35,650 nt of DNA from an uncultured Saprospiraceae bacterium (GTDB lineage Bacteria; Bacteroidota; Bacteroidia; Chitinophagales; Saprospiraceae), in the NCBI GenBank assembly GCA_938022935.1, contig CALIHL010000229.1:1-35650 (forward strand), read 5' to 3'. Within the stretch, counting starts at the first letter, position 1; the number at the start of each line of letters is the position of its first letter. Under the pieces are notes generated by a model. That model saw nothing but the letters and a program-made list of their open reading frames with translations, had not been told where the DNA came from and did no database searches. A program made the position numbers and the translations under genes. Of this stretch, positions 3,613 through 10,346 are shown piece after piece.

Positions 3613-5994
3613 ATGACAGAGCAGCTTTCAGAGTTTTATGAATTGATGGATCAAAAGATCCAGCAGACGTGGTTTTCCACCGAGCCCAATGATCATCTAT
3701 CCGCTCTTGCAAAAGGGCTTCAAGCACTTTGTAAGAAAGCCGTTGATATAGGCGATAAAGCAGAAGCTAATCTTGCGACTGAAGGAATCACACTTGCGGA
3801 TACATGTGATGGCACGATCATACATTACGATTGGCTAAGAGAGGTTAAGGGTGTATTAGTGCTGTGGAGAGATGTTGTCTTTCAATATCAGAAAGCATCG
3901 ATCTTACAACGCGAGGGTCAAGTAACCCAAGAACAGGTAGACCAACTCTTCAGTGAATCAAGAAAAAGAGTAGAAGCCGCTTCTAATCATATAAAAGAGT
4001 TTTTCGACAAATCTAAATCCACGCTAAAAGATGAAACATCTCAAAACGATTATTTAGAAAAACAATCACTGAAGATTAGTCCTTGGCCAGTCTACAATGA
4101 ACAATTAGAAACTTTAAACGAGCAAAGTCAACTTCTCATAGAGCAGCATGGCCAAGTTGTAAAAACAAAAGAAGACTTACTCAAGTTAGAAAGCTCGATA
4201 CAAGACGTTGTCAACTCTTTTAAAATAGAAATCGAAAGAATCAGAGAACTGGGTCATCAGACTATTAATATCGTCAATGAAAATATAGAAGAGCATCCAC
4301 AGAAGATTGTGAAACATATAGATACTATTGATCAACAAGTACTAGCTGCTAACATTTATAATGCCTACACTTTTATCGCTGATCAGATCACATCTGATAT
4401 GGTGGAGTCTATGGAGGTGCCGACTAAGATTGAGAATAGTCAGATACAATATAAAGAGATCAATTTTTCTAATGTGACTAGACATTGGCTTGAAGGAGAA
4501 GTGCAGCCGAGTATCATCGAAGCTCAAGAGATCTTAGATAGTGTTGGTAACAGCATGAAGATGGCACTTGTCAATGTGCGCAACAGAATAGCACTGGCTA
4601 CAAGTGATGGACAAGAGACCACTCAGATCAACTTAGAAAGTGCTGAATTGACTCAACCGATCAATACAGCACTTGAAATTATAAATGGAAGATTAGAATC
4701 GCTTAAAGAGTTTCAAGATGTCGTCAAGCTTAGACTTGATGAGCACCTTCATATCAATCATGTGTATGATGAAGACCATAGTTTTCTACATGCATCCCAA
4801 CAGTATCTGGTGGGTCAGATAAATCTGGAGCAAACTGCTTGGATACAAAAAATTAAAAACTGGGTATTTGGCAAGAGCCAGATCCTAAAGGGATTTATGG
4901 CAGGTGTTGCAGAAGAAGAATCCTTGAGTAGCGCTGAAAAAATAGTCCGCTTTGTGCAAAGTAGAAGCGTGCACGATGATAACAATCAGTACAACAACAT
5001 CTTCTCAGCACATGGATATATCGGAGAGTCTTTCTGGGTAGGAAGAAATCGGGAGTTATCACATATGATCCAGTTGATTAAGAACTGGCGAGACGGATTT
5101 AGAGGATCTGTGATCGTTAGCGGCAAAAGATTTAGTGGTAAGTCAGTGTATGGTGAGTTAATCGCGCATCGATACTTCCCTCAGGAGACGATTAGAATAA
5201 GACCTCAAGGTGTTATCAATATAGACGGAAGAACATTTGAGACAACTGAAGACCTCGGCCCTGCATTAGACTTTCTAAAAAAGAACTCTATCAATCAGTC
5301 TTACTTGGTTTGGATCGATGACTTAGAGTTATGGCAGAGTCCGACGATCACAGCGAGCCAAAATGTACAAACACTACTTAGGCACATAGATGATTTGTCT
5401 GCTCAGCACTTCTTTATGGTGTCTATGAGCAATTGGTTTAAGAACCACTATAACCAGATGTTTAAACTTGAAAAAGTATTTCAAGCGGAGATCAATATGG
5501 ACATAATGTCTGAAGATGAAGTGCGCCAAGCCATCATCATCAGACATGGTGCAACACATAAATTGTTGGTAGACGAATCAGGAGAACAAGTGCCACCGCA
5601 GGCATTTGCAAAAATGGTACAGCGAGTCTGTAGTCTTGGCAATTATAACATCGGTCAAGCACTCAACCTTTGGTCTTATTATACAGAAAGAGTTAATGAC
5701 GAGCAAGTGGTCCATCGACCAGACTTGACATATCAACTTCCAGACTTCATCAATGATGAAAATAGTATACTACTCAGAGCGATCTTGATGAACAAGAGAA
5801 CCAATGAGTATAGACTTAGAAAAATATTGGGTCAATCATTTACTACCAAGTATAAAGCGATTGTACAAAGACTCATCAACCTTGGAGTTCTCAATCGACA
5901 CATAGATGGACTCTTAGAGCTTAATGATGGTATTGTGAATGATGTGGCTGCATTGCTTGAGCAAGCTGGATATATAAAGTATAGACACAGATGA
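3613..5994 (+). CDS. Large P-loop (AAA+/STAND-like) ATPase with long helical N-terminus, unknown function
   Basis: A 793-aa protein I do not recognise as a named family. Residues 1 to about 450 look almost entirely helical and hydrophilic, with coiled-coil-like stretches around 90-230. The NTPase core starts with a WVGR-NREL entry of the AAA_16/ORC type. Walker A is GKRFSGKS (504-511), Walker B is LVWIDD (565-570), and a sensor-1-like Asn sits at 607 (SMSN). The last 75 residues resemble a winged-helix domain. No signal peptide or membrane helix is evident, so it is probably cytoplasmic. Its TGA overlaps the ATG of the MscS-like gene (ATGA), indicating translational coupling. An ATP-dependent sensing or gating role for the two membrane partners is inference only. 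Confidence 0.8.
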   Translation: MTEQLSEFYELMDQKIQQTWFSTEPNDHLSALAKGLQALCKKAVDIGDKAEANLATEGITLADTCDGTIIHYDWLREVKGVLVLWRDVVFQYQKASILQREGQVTQEQVDQLFSESRKRVEAASNHIKEFFDKSKSTLKDETSQNDYLEKQSLKISPWPVYNEQLETLNEQSQLLIEQHGQVVKTKEDLLKLESSIQDVVNSFKIEIERIRELGHQTINIVNENIEEHPQKIVKHIDTIDQQVLAANIYNAYTFIADQITSDMVESMEVPTKIENSQIQYKEINFSNVTRHWLEGEVQPSIIEAQEILDSVGNSMKMALVNVRNRIALATSDGQETTQINLESAELTQPINTALEIINGRLESLKEFQDVVKLRLDEHLHINHVYDEDHSFLHASQQYLVGQINLEQTAWIQKIKNWVFGKSQILKGFMAGVAEEESLSSAEKIVRFVQSRSVHDDNNQYNNIFSAHGYIGESFWVGRNRELSHMIQLIKNWRDGFRGSVIVSGKRFSGKSVYGELIAHRYFPQETIRIRPQGVINIDGRTFETTEDLGPALDFLKKNSINQSYLVWIDDLELWQSPTITASQNVQTLLRHIDDLSAQHFFMVSMSNWFKNHYNQMFKLEKVFQAEINMDIMSEDEVRQAIIIRHGATHKLLVDESGEQVPPQAFAKMVQRVCSLGNYNIGQALNLWSYYTERVNDEQVVHRPDLTYQLPDFINDENSILLRAILMNKRTNEYRLRKILGQSFTTKYKAIVQRLINLGVLNRHIDGLLELNDGIVNDVAALLEQAGYIKYRHR

Positions 5995-6731
5995 ATATAG
6001 AAGACATATTCAACATAGATTATAATTGGGTGGACCTGATCTTCTTGTCAGTGATCTTGGTGCTTGTCTATATGCTACTTCTTTTCTTAAGAAAGATTGT
6101 TTTCAATATTTCATTTTTAGGTGGAGCAAGATCATTTATTAAGAGAGTACTTGATATCACTTTGATCTTGTATGAGCCGCTGTTCATATTAGTCATTTTA
6201 AGTGCATTTGTTATGATCAAGCCAGGTATACATGGACTGATCGTAGGAGTGTTATTAGTAATGGGGTTCAGTCATATTCGTAACTACTTTCACGGTAGAT
6301 TATTTATGTCGGATAAGTCATTAAAGGCAGGTAGAAGAATTAGAATAACAGACCAAGAAGGAATCATCACAGAGATGGGCAGAATGGGTATCCAAGTAAG
6401 AAGTGATGACGGGATGCATTATATACCTTATCATATCTTGGTGACAGAAGGCTATGTGATGTCATCCGGAGAAAAGATAGGAGGATACTATCGCCTGAAC
6501 ATAACAAGAGAGAAAACAGAAGCTGGCCACAACTACTTGAGTGAGTTATCCAATATATTAATATCAAGTCCTTATGTGGACGGAGATCATAAACCTGAGA
6601 TTGAGCGTTCTATACATGCTCAAGACACGATAGACGTGCGATTATTGGTTAAAGAGGAGCAACACCTCAACGACCTTATCGCGCTGTTGAGTGAATATGG
6701 CTATCAATCTAAGATTACAAAATCCAACTAA
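5991..6731 (+). CDS. Small MscS-like mechanosensitive channel family protein
   Basis: A 246-aa inner-membrane protein with about three N-terminal hydrophobic segments (roughly residues 14-34, 45-67 and 70-92). The part after the last segment, with AGRRIRI, an EGxI turn and IPYHILVTEGY (about 115-155), matches the beta (Sm-like) domain of MscS channels. There, 'D-x-G-x-V-x-x-I' and 'I-P-N-x-x-l' are usual; here the Asn is Tyr (IPYHIL). A short alpha/beta domain follows. The length is close to E. coli MscS (286 aa) but lacks some C-terminal sequence. It overlaps the ATPase by 4 nt and the antiporter by 1 nt. Family assignment is by pattern; whether it conducts ions is not shown. Confidence 0.75.
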   Translation: MNIEDIFNIDYNWVDLIFLSVILVLVYMLLLFLRKIVFNISFLGGARSFIKRVLDITLILYEPLFILVILSAFVMIKPGIHGLIVGVLLVMGFSHIRNYFHGRLFMSDKSLKAGRRIRITDQEGIITEMGRMGIQVRSDDGMHYIPYHILVTEGYVMSSGEKIGGYYRLNITREKTEAGHNYLSELSNILISSPYVDGDHKPEIERSIHAQDTIDVRLLVKEEQHLNDLIALLSEYGYQSKITKSN

Positions 6732-8059
6732 TGGAAACAATAACTTCCTATTCATTACTACTTGCATCTACAGATCTATTTAGCTCCTATAATCTGATCA
6801 TAGGGTCTTCTATAGTGATCATATTGTCTTTCTTCTTTGGAGAACTATCTAAGAAGACCAATATACCGTCAGTATTGATGTTGATCATACTCGGTATCGT
6901 TATCAAGATTGGACTGGATAGCGTCACAGAGAAAACACCTGACTTCCAAGCATATCTTGAAGTGCTGGGTATCGTCGGTCTGATCATGATTGTCCTAGAA
7001 GCAGCTCTAGAGCTGAAGCTGGAAAAGGAAAAACTTATACCCATCGCGAAGGCTTTTACAATTGCCTTGATTGGATTGATATTATCAGCATGGGCAGCTG
7101 CGGCCTTACTTCATCAGTTTGTGCCAGACATGACCATGCAAAAAGCATGGATCTATGCAACTCCGATATCTATATTATCCAGTGCGATTATCATCCCTTC
7201 GGTTTCAACCTTAAGAAGTGATAAGAAGGAGTTTCATATATACGAAAGTACCTTCTCTGATATACTCGGCATCATGATGTTTTACTTCTTAGTAGCGCCC
7301 TTCGAAAATGGAGGAGAAGCTACGGGCTTCTTGGCCTTTGGAGGTAATATCATCTTGACTATAGTGTTGTCATTAATCGCGAGTTATGCGATTGTGATCA
7401 TATTTCAGCGTATCGAGACCCATGTAAAGTTGTTTTTGCTAATAGCCGTATTGCTACTGCTGTATGCGATCGGTAAGAAGATGCACTTGTCTTCACTTAT
7501 CATCATCCTTGTATTTGGATTGGTGATCGCTAACATGAAACTGTTCTTTAAGGGGACATTAAGCCACTTTCTCGATAAGGAGAATGCCGATCATATCTAT
7601 GAAGGACTGCATGTTGTGACTATGGAGACGGCCTTTGTTGTTAGGACATTCTTCTTTGTAGTGTTTGGTCTTACGATCGTCTTGTCATCACTGGCGAGTA
7701 TGAAAGTAGCGATGATCAGTTTATTGATTATCGTGTCGATCTATGTGATCAGATACCTCACTCTTAGACTTTTTATAGGTAAGGACATACTTCCGCAGTT
7801 ATTCATTGCGCCAAGGGGCTTGATCACGGTTCTACTGTTCTATGCCATCCCGACAGGGGCAATGGTAGAGGGCTTTGAGTCAGGGATCCTATTATTTATC
7901 ATAATTGGCACGAGTGTCATCATGACTTTCGCCATGATATCTGACAAAAGAAGGACAAATAGTGCTGTGCGAGAAGCGAAAAGCCAGCCTGTAGGATATG
8001 TGAAGTGGGAGGCGCCATCAGTAGGAGAAGGGCCGGCCGCAAAAGAGTCGCAACATTGA
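6731..8059 (+). CDS. Cation:proton antiporter (CPA family, Na+/H+ exchanger fold)
   Basis: A 442-aa polytopic membrane protein with about 12 hydrophobic segments and a short charged C-terminal tail, of the monovalent cation:proton antiporter family. It would exchange Na+ or K+ for H+ across the inner membrane. The ion-site helix reads ESTFSDILG (172-180). Electroneutral CPA1 exchangers usually have Asn-Asp here, but this protein has Ser176-Asp177. APRGLITVLLF near residue 365 is the conserved Arg-containing helix. The start ATG overlaps the previous stop by one base (taATG), so translation is likely coupled to the MscS-like gene. Loss of the Asn may alter ion selectivity or stoichiometry; this is inference. 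Confidence 0.88.
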   Translation: METITSYSLLLASTDLFSSYNLIIGSSIVIILSFFFGELSKKTNIPSVLMLIILGIVIKIGLDSVTEKTPDFQAYLEVLGIVGLIMIVLEAALELKLEKEKLIPIAKAFTIALIGLILSAWAAAALLHQFVPDMTMQKAWIYATPISILSSAIIIPSVSTLRSDKKEFHIYESTFSDILGIMMFYFLVAPFENGGEATGFLAFGGNIILTIVLSLIASYAIVIIFQRIETHVKLFLLIAVLLLLYAIGKKMHLSSLIIILVFGLVIANMKLFFKGTLSHFLDKENADHIYEGLHVVTMETAFVVRTFFFVVFGLTIVLSSLASMKVAMISLLIIVSIYVIRYLTLRLFIGKDILPQLFIAPRGLITVLLFYAIPTGAMVEGFESGILLFIIIGTSVIMTFAMISDKRRTNSAVREAKSQPVGYVKWEAPSVGEGPAAKESQH

Positions 8060-8130: not shown

Positions 8131-8201
8131 GGTCGGGTGGCCGAGCGGTTAGGCAGAGGTCTGCAAAACCTTGTACGGCAGTTCGAATCTGCTCCCGACC
8201 T
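8131..8201 (+). tRNA. tRNA-Cys (GCA)
   Basis: A complete cloverleaf can be drawn. The acceptor stem is GGTCGGG paired with CCCGACC. The D arm is GCCGAGCGGTTAGGC. The anticodon stem GAGGT/ACCTT encloses loop CTGCAAA with anticodon GCA. The T arm is GGCAG-TTCGAAT-CTGCT. The discriminator base is U, as expected for cysteine tRNA. CCA is not encoded. It lies downstream of the antiporter gene and directly before an A+T-rich accessory segment. Confidence 0.96.
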
Positions 8202-8611: not shown

Positions 8612-9226
8612 ATGAATTTAGCAAATTTTTCTGGCAACTACGTTAAACGTAGAACCGTATCTTCAACTGAATGTAAATATGATTTAAAAAAGATTGCTCC
8701 TTTTTTATTTCAAGCGTTTAACAAAAGTGTTGAAGAGTATTATTCACTTATTGCATCAATCCCTGCTGAAAGTCGCGGACGAGGATGGGAGGCTTCTACA
8801 CTTAACACAAAGATGATTCAGCATTTTCAAAAAGCCTTTCCCGCAAATTGGAGATATGGAAAGTACAAGAGGTTTCTTTTAGAGTTAAGTACATATACAA
8901 TAATATGTAAGAAACTAAACAAGAAAGGAAAGCCAATGAATATTAAGACAGTTGCATCTTCAGCAATAGCAAATCAAATGCAACTCTCGCTCTTTGAGAA
9001 TCATGATTCTTTTCACTTATCACCAATAATTATATTTGGGTATCAGAAAGATAAATTTGGAAAGATTAACTCACCTAGTTTGACTTATATAGATGAGGAT
9101 AAAGTAAAATGGAAACTCACAGAAATCGATTTTGATATGTCAATTGCTCATAATGTTAAACCTCAATTGAACGTTATTAAACCTAAGTTAAAAATACCAA
9201 CTGTTAAGAAAAAAGTGGCAGAGTAA
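8612..9226 (+). CDS. Uncharacterised 204-aa protein, candidate toxin or effector of an ImmA-linked module
   Basis: I do not recognise a named domain. The protein is soluble and basic, with no signal peptide or membrane helix. The C-terminal half contains SPIIIFGYQKDKFGKI followed by a strand-rich stretch and a Lys/Pro-rich tail. MQLSLFE precedes it. The A+T content is visibly higher than in the chromosomal genes on either side. It is followed after 61 nt by an XRE-ImmA/IrrE protein on the same strand and preceded by a hairpin-rich leader. This gene order resembles toxin-antitoxin or defence pairs in which an XRE-Zn-peptidase controls a small partner. That role is inferred from context only. 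Confidence 0.7.
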   Translation: MNLANFSGNYVKRRTVSSTECKYDLKKIAPFLFQAFNKSVEEYYSLIASIPAESRGRGWEASTLNTKMIQHFQKAFPANWRYGKYKRFLLELSTYTIICKKLNKKGKPMNIKTVASSAIANQMQLSLFENHDSFHLSPIIIFGYQKDKFGKINSPSLTYIDEDKVKWKLTEIDFDMSIAHNVKPQLNVIKPKLKIPTVKKKVAE

Positions 9227-9287
9227 TTTTTAAATCTGCTTTCTATGATTGCCAACCTGAGAGCAGACTTAAAAAATCAGATGAAAA

Positions 9288-10346
9288 ATGAAAGAATGGA
9301 GACAAATTTCTATTGCAAGAGAATTTAGAAAACTCAGTCAGTCCGATTTAGCTAAACAAATTGATGGTTTATCTCAACCCAATTTATCTAAATATGAAAA
9401 AGGACTAGGTGGATTGTCGGAAGAAATAGTTTTCAGAATTATGAAAACTCTTGAATTTCCAGAAGGATTTATAAACGAAAGAATCCATTACAGTATTGAG
9501 AATGCTCATTTTAGAAAAAGGAAATCAATAACAGTTAAAAATGTAAAATACCTTGAATCGCTAATTAAGTTGGTTGCGTTTACTGTAGACAAATTTAGTG
9601 ATTCACTAGAATGGCCAGAATTTAAATTAACCCCTTTAGAAATTGAAGACGGTTTTACTCCTGAAGATGTGGCGCTACATAATAGGAGTCTCTTAGGGCT
9701 TAAACCATCTATGCCAGTAAAGAATATATGCGAGTTACTTGAGTCCAATGGAGTAATAATAATAGAACTTGGAATTGGGCTCGAAAAATTTGATGGGGTA
9801 TCCATAATTTCTGATAGTGGAATTCCTTTGATTATAATTAATAAGTATTTCACAAATGATAGAAAAAGGTTTACAATAGCACATGAATTAGGCCATATTC
9901 TCCTTCACCTATATGGTAATCCGGCAATCTCTTCATATCGTGATAAAGAGAAGGAGGCAAATAGTTTTGCTTCTGAATTTCTAATGCCAATAGAAGGAAT
10001 TTACGACTCATTGGTAAATCTTAAACTATCCTCTCTTACGCCTTTAAAGTCGAATTGGTTGACTTCAATGGCTTCCATTGTGCATAAGGCATATTCGATA
10101 GGAGCAATAGACAAAAAGCGATATACTCATTTAAATATTGAAATGAGTAGACGGGGAATGAAGAAAAATGAAGGATTTTCTGTTTTTATCGACCGACCAT
10201 CTTTGCTCAAAGAAGCCTATAAGTTATTTAAAGACTCATTGGATTATTCAATTTCAGACTTTAACAAGGGTTTTCAATTACCTCGCGATTTTATATTGAA
10301 TTTATTTGGAGATAATTCGAATAGCCTTAGATTAAAAGTTGTTTAA
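9288..10346 (+). CDS. XRE-family HTH regulator fused to ImmA/IrrE-type metallopeptidase
   Basis: A 352-aa protein. An N-terminal XRE helix-turn-helix (about residues 4-60, with LSQSDLAKQIDGLSQPNLSKYE) is followed by a DUF955 zinc peptidase domain. The active site is HELGH (199-203). The downstream EKEANSFASEFLMP (221-234) carries the family's third ligand region. Proteins of this class cleave repressors or antitoxins after a stress or phage signal; ImmA and IrrE are the known examples. Here the DNA-binding and protease parts are in one chain, as in many XRE-COG2856 toxin-antitoxin-like modules. It ends convergently 88 nt from galE. The base composition is A+T-rich like its partner at 8612, which suggests acquisition by transfer. 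Confidence 0.9.
   Translation: MKEWRQISIAREFRKLSQSDLAKQIDGLSQPNLSKYEKGLGGLSEEIVFRIMKTLEFPEGFINERIHYSIENAHFRKRKSITVKNVKYLESLIKLVAFTVDKFSDSLEWPEFKLTPLEIEDGFTPEDVALHNRSLLGLKPSMPVKNICELLESNGVIIIELGIGLEKFDGVSIISDSGIPLIIINKYFTNDRKRFTIAHELGHILLHLYGNPAISSYRDKEKEANSFASEFLMPIEGIYDSLVNLKLSSLTPLKSNWLTSMASIVHKAYSIGAIDKKRYTHLNIEMSRRGMKKNEGFSVFIDRPSLLKEAYKLFKDSLDYSISDFNKGFQLPRDFILNLFGDNSNSLRLKVV

Follow-up and report, generated by a model that had tools for sequence, protein, structure and literature searches.

A conserved operon of an AAA+ ATPase, an MscS-like protein and a cation:proton antiporter in Saprospiraceae: a candidate regulatory module for ion transporters

Results

Organization of the operon

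The window, that is, the whole stretch of DNA analyzed here (35,650 nucleotides), is contig C229 of a Saprospiraceae draft genome of 4.06 Mb that is 83.9% complete. It contains three co-directional open reading frames at 3613–5994, 5991–6731, and 6731–8059 on the plus strand. The coordinates agree with the preliminary description of this DNA, as do the overlaps, which amount to 4 nt (ATGA) between genes 1 and 2 and 1 nt (the A of TAATG) between genes 2 and 3. No terminator-like sites were found between the three genes on the plus strand, and a tRNA-Cys gene lies 3′ of the trio at 8131. The closest relative in public data is a metagenome bin of Saprospiraceae, whose ATPase is 89% identical, and a scan of genome contigs returned just two close relatives. 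The features of the operon are the following (residue numbers are those of the respective protein).

3613..5994, + strand: gene 1, 793-aa cytoplasmic AAA+ ATPase
3613..4989, + strand: N-terminal all-helical, coiled-coil-rich region, residues 1–459 (secondary structure of the model)
4990..5736, + strand: AAA+ domain, residues 460–708 (Z about 14–15 to NSF-D2, ORC2, and RFC structures)
5122..5145, + strand: Walker A GKRFSGKS, residues 504–511 (from sequence; G504 and G509 invariant in 50 homologues)
5311..5328, + strand: Walker B WIDDLE, residues 567–572, with WIDD at 567–570 (from sequence; D569 invariant in 50 homologues)
5740..5982, + strand: winged-helix-like C-terminal domain, residues 710–790 (from the model; the A. 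pernix ORC2 alignment covers 456–787)
5991..6731, + strand: gene 2, 246-aa MscS-fold membrane protein
6222..6311, + strand: TM3, the pore-helix equivalent, residues 78–107 (from the model; 3 Gly+Ala among the 20 residues of its first part)
6336..6428, + strand: MscS β-domain, residues 116–146 (from the model)
6486..6725, + strand: C-terminal α/β domain, residues 166–245 (from the model; in trios lacking the MscS-like gene, the ATPase ends in a similar domain)
6731..8059, + strand: gene 3, 442-aa antiporter of the CPA superfamily (PF00999)
7244..7261, + strand: ion-site motif ESTFSD, residues 172–177 (conserved; Ser176-Asp177 at the place of the CPA1 Asn-Asp)
7988..8017, + strand: C-terminal tail motif PVGYVKWEAP, residues 420–429 (Trp426 in 31 of 31 full-length trio antiporters compared)

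The three proteins

The ATPase has no predicted transmembrane segments, and its AlphaFold2 model has a pLDDT of 89. The Walker A and Walker B motifs and the fold identify it as an AAA+ protein. Alignment of the model with VIA-align superimposes about 200 residues on the NSF chain at 3.4–3.9 Å, and the alignment with ORC2 extends through the winged helix. The protein thus shares with AAA+ ATPases of the ORC/Cdc6, NSF-D2, and RFC type the AAA+ core, the Walker motifs, and a winged helix after the core. It differs from them in its long N-terminal helical region and its linkage to ion transporters, and it passes no curated family cut-off, including those of AAA_16 (16.5 bits against 32.6), ORC-Cdc6, and STAND. 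The ATPase profile also matched influenza HA2 sequences in the PDB, which was rejected as a coiled-coil artefact.

Gene 2 scores above the curated cut-off of PF00924 (MS_channel; 25.0 bits against 20.2). Its model (pLDDT 92.9) has three transmembrane helices and a cytoplasmic β and α/β part, and it adopts the MscS protomer fold (Foldseek E 4.4e-11 to MscS; VIA Z 11.8), sharing with MscS channels the three helices, the β-domain, and the α/β C-terminal domain. One difference from ordinary MscS channels lies in the pore-helix equivalent. The first part of TM3 (TM3a) of gene 2 is not rich in small residues, with 3 Gly+Ala in 20 positions (family mean 0.15), whereas eight of the nine other MscS-family members of the host genome, all ordinary MscS proteins, have 5–10 of 20. 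Moreover, the β-domain is missing from the MscS-like protein in one genus, and the whole gene is missing in other trios. The gene 2 product probably forms no classical MscS pore. At two loci with overlapping ORFs (L107 and L110), reading the frames showed that the MscS-like gene is present.

Gene 3 encodes the only PF00999 protein found in the host draft genome (Na_H_Exchanger; 74.5 bits against a cut-off of 26.2). It matches the CPA antiporters (NhaP/CvrA-like K+/H+, PRK05326) across the whole transporter domain and, like them, has a conserved ion-site Asp and an Arg in a late transmembrane helix. Judged by its family, it would exchange a cation, K+ or Na+, for H+. An Asn-Asp ion-site pair is the rule for CPA1 Na+/H+ antiporters; here it is replaced by Ser-Asp, which is invariant in the trio antiporters and in the standalone relatives compared. 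The score is also far below the NCBIfam PRK05326 equivalog cut-off (37.4 bits against 355), and the antiporter sequence profile gave no match in the PDB at E ≤ 0.001. A further difference from CPA antiporters is the C-terminal tail, with a P-V-G-x-x-K-W-K-A-P-like consensus in the trio. Its Trp occurs in all 31 trio antiporters and in none of 20 standalone relatives from Saprospiraceae; as this comparison contrasts two subfamilies, the motif could be a docking site or a mere clade marker.

Conservation of the trio

Gene linkage was surveyed in 120 Saprospiraceae genomes. In each of the 43 intact trio-type ATPase loci, an antiporter of the trio subfamily lies directly downstream. When all 46 trio-type ATPase matches are counted, the antiporter is found 0.27–1.1 kb downstream, with 60–100% identity, in 43; of the three exceptions, one contig ends right after the MscS-like gene (G847) and two matches are truncated (G830:C125 and G860:C793). 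Antiporter matches of at least 60% identity are all linked to the ATPase, except one located on another contig in G830, while none of the 22 matches of 32–55% identity is linked. The linkage at all intact loci bears out the earlier proposal that the three genes are a functional unit, and the concern that the three families might rarely co-occur in other genomes was not confirmed.

The homologous loci that were read have the ATPase, the MscS-like gene, and the antiporter in the same order and on the same strand, so the arrangement is not due to chance. Of 61 relatives searched, 15 carry the ATPase; these include 6 of 6 genus members, and in this sample no genome outside the family has it. The wider Bacteroidota profile searches found full trios in two other families as well. 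The trio is absent from more than half of the sampled Saprospiraceae genomes. The intergenic gaps vary from −13 to +154 nt between genes 1 and 2 and from −1 to +88 nt between genes 2 and 3. Only close relatives keep the nucleotide overlaps, while the operon itself is conserved. Fixed stoichiometry, which had been read from the overlaps, is not supported by such variable spacing. An apparent full ATPase-MscS fusion in G950 (a 1014-aa open frame) was rejected, since the extra sequence lies on the upstream side and the locus has its own MscS-like gene downstream.

Four trios (L145, L146, L147, and L213) have no MscS-like gene. In these loci the ATPase is extended at its C terminus by about 75 residues, which align with the C-terminal domain of the MscS-like proteins. 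The hhalign comparison of the two is weak and based on four loci (P 1.3e-4, probability 54%); its score is 26.4, and none of 150 column shuffles exceeded 19.4. The match suggests, but does not prove, that the ATPase bears the MscS-like C-terminal domain in these trios. The antiporters of L145, L146, and L147 keep the tail Trp.

The ATPase and MscS-like pair with other transporters

Profile searches for the ATPase domain in two draws of 395 Bacteroidota genomes also detected it in proteins with lengths near 1000 and 1700 aa, and the ATPase and MscS-like pair occurs without the trio antiporter. At nine loci, proteins of 1509–1735 aa that, judged by their start sequence, begin like SLC12 transporters have the ATPase as their C-terminal part, and an MscS-like gene comes next. 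In three of these (L074, L076, and L083), the SLC12 part scores 166, 164, and 144 bits with PF00324, above the cut-off of 24.6; in L074 and L076 it also matches TIGR00930 at E about 1e-115, under the subfamily cut-off of that model. Bacterial SLC12-type cation-chloride cotransporters (TIGR00930) are thus fused in relatives to the same ATPase, although the operon of the window contains none. For the CCC of Methanosarcina acetivorans, the C-terminal domain has been solved, as noted in PMC4301019.

An MscS-like gene lies directly 3′ in 24 of the 30 non-trio ATPase loci, and the six loci without an adjacent one are all from one family. In the ATPase-domain tree, a branch (100/99) has all trio ATPases on one side. 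The SLC12-fused ATPases form a separate group, together with three unfused ones (L081, L082, and L149). A related antiporter is found near two of the latter (L081 and L082), on the opposite strand and with a different shared tail. Some genomes (G035 and G857) combine a trio with an SLC12-ATPase locus. SLC12 proteins that stand alone, about 740 aa long, are common in Bacteroidota and make up most of the copies found; in the short flanks read, neither an ATPase nor an MscS-like gene was seen beside them.

Several individual loci deserve mention. At L151:6218-11193, the SLC12-ATPase gene appears as two ORFs of 1509 and 148 aa with a 1-nt overlap, which is either a real split or a frameshift. L084 and L085 carry a 1120-aa ATPase relative, from one family and with no MscS-like gene beside it, and by eye their neighboring genes resemble a tRNA nucleotidyltransferase and a miaA-like gene. 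At L075:2604-8202, the end of a pair with an ATPase of about 1000 aa and a convergent gene for a SulP sulfate permease with a STAS domain are 4 nt apart; the permease is possibly another transporter partner. The standalone SLC12-type genes of L168, L169, L170, and L192 lie behind genes that, by eye, have panC- and panD-like starts.

Discussion

We propose, with a probability of roughly 55%, that the products of the three genes make up one ion-transport unit at the membrane, with an ATPase and MscS-like regulatory module. In such a unit the antiporter would be the working transporter, and the AAA+ ATPase and the MscS-like protein would form a dedicated regulatory module acting on it. The MscS-like protein would most likely serve as the membrane anchor and as a sensor of the state of the membrane or of cytoplasmic crowding, with its C-terminal α/β domain most likely touching the ATPase. 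The ATPase, in turn, would most likely grip the Trp-containing C-terminal tail of the antiporter, and ATP binding or hydrolysis would switch or remodel the antiporter, so that ion content and turgor are adjusted. Elsewhere in Bacteroidota, gene fusion ties the same pair to an SLC12-type cotransporter. The computational analysis establishes the operon and its conservation, the folds, the fusion, and the tail motif; that the proteins form a complex, which of them touch, how regulation is directed, tension sensing, the use of ATP, and the ions moved are inferences. A regulating assembly is favored because it best fits the operon, the SLC12 fusion, and the tail, and we consider a dedicated regulatory module for ion transporters to be the best reading of the pair.

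Since the antiporters of three of the trios that lack the MscS-like gene retain the Trp, the ATPase is a likelier receptor for the tail than the membrane part of the MscS-like protein. The MscS-less trios show that this membrane part is dispensable, and it therefore cannot be the sole sensor. The earlier idea of an ATPase that controls a channel is weakened by the pore helix of gene 2, which is not rich in small residues, and by the loss of the β-domain or of the whole gene in some trios. A role in ion or turgor homeostasis, which had been suggested along with it, is still probable because of the transporter families involved, and it fits the partners, including the SLC12-type cotransporters fused to the ATPase.

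The main rival to a regulatory module is an assembly or quality-control machine, in which an AAA+ chaperone or unfoldase anchored by the MscS-like protein inserts, folds, or turns over the transporter. The AAA+ fold, closest to NSF-D2, ORC/Cdc6, and RFC, is consistent with this, and a conserved Trp-containing C-terminal tail is the kind of tag that such machines grip. However, a permanent fusion of the ATPase to an SLC12 transporter suits a standing subunit better than a transient chaperone, and within the phylum, antiporters and SLC12 proteins that stand alone have no such neighbor. We give this explanation perhaps a third of the weight of the regulatory module.

It is somewhat less probable that the operon is a stress operon, in which an exchanger, an MscS-family valve, and a signaling ATPase are merely co-expressed without a physical complex. 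In its favor, osmotic balance involves exchangers as well as MscS channels, and the gene spacing is variable. Co-expression does not account for the transporter-ATPase gene fusion, the trio-specific tail of the antiporter, or the MscS-like C-terminal domain that the ATPase appears to carry in the MscS-less trios, and the pore helix is unlike those of the eight ordinary MscS proteins of the same genome.

The regular pairing or fusion of the ATPase with a secondary carrier could also indicate an ATP-energized pump, in which uphill transport through the carrier is powered by the ATPase, in the manner of ArsA with ArsB. The ArsAB arsenite transporter likewise pairs an ATPase with a secondary carrier; the trio differs from it in the ATPase family, and ArsAB has no MscS-like partner. 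We know of no AAA+ motor that energizes an ion carrier, which counts against a pump. The ATPase of the trio is AAA+ with a winged helix by fold and has no ArsA-like library match, and two unrelated transporter folds are served by it, which makes a pump improbable. ArsA homologues are among the subjects of PMC2963123.

Finally, the preliminary description had entertained a membrane-disrupting defense module. An ATPase sensor with a membrane protein does resemble the layout of some defense systems, but an anti-phage or membrane-disrupting module with the MscS-like protein as effector is very unlikely: none of the three proteins has a PADLOC match at E ≤ 0.001, the neighboring genes are ordinary, common within the genus and differing between genera, all six genus members searched carry the operon, the putative effector gene is lost in some trios, and no PF00999 protein other than the antiporter was found in the host draft genome.

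Returning to the regulatory module, a more general form of it can be put forward tentatively, namely that the pair is a plug-in that places unrelated secondary transporters (CPA and SLC12-type) under the control of membrane tension and ATP, as a bacterial volume-regulation switch. If so, the pair would act on the same two transporter classes that are used in animal cell-volume control. Each part of the trio belongs to a known fold family, and what is new is therefore the combination. Family libraries and the open-licence literature yielded no named system with this trio, in agreement with the preliminary description, and no described system in which an ORC/NSF-like AAA+ ATPase and an MscS-fold protein accompany secondary ion transporters; one may still be described elsewhere. 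New here are the occurrence of the pair beyond the trio, the SLC12 fusion, the Trp motif of the tail, and the MscS-like domain on the ATPase. These observations point to an undescribed way of controlling ion transport. Should the pair indeed regulate transporters, Bacteroidota would possess a new kind of transporter control, and the pair would exemplify the reuse of an MscS-fold protein as a regulatory subunit. The ATPase-bearing SLC12-type proteins may also offer a route to studying cotransporter regulation outside animals.

Downstream of the operon, the stretch at 8612–10346 of the window, between the tRNA-Cys gene and a galE-like gene, holds two genes, one of 204 aa with no Pfam match and one of 352 aa that combines HTH_3 with an IrrE-type peptidase (Peptidase_M78). 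At the matching site of the close relative L021 lies another ORF, of 468 aa, so this stretch looks variable.
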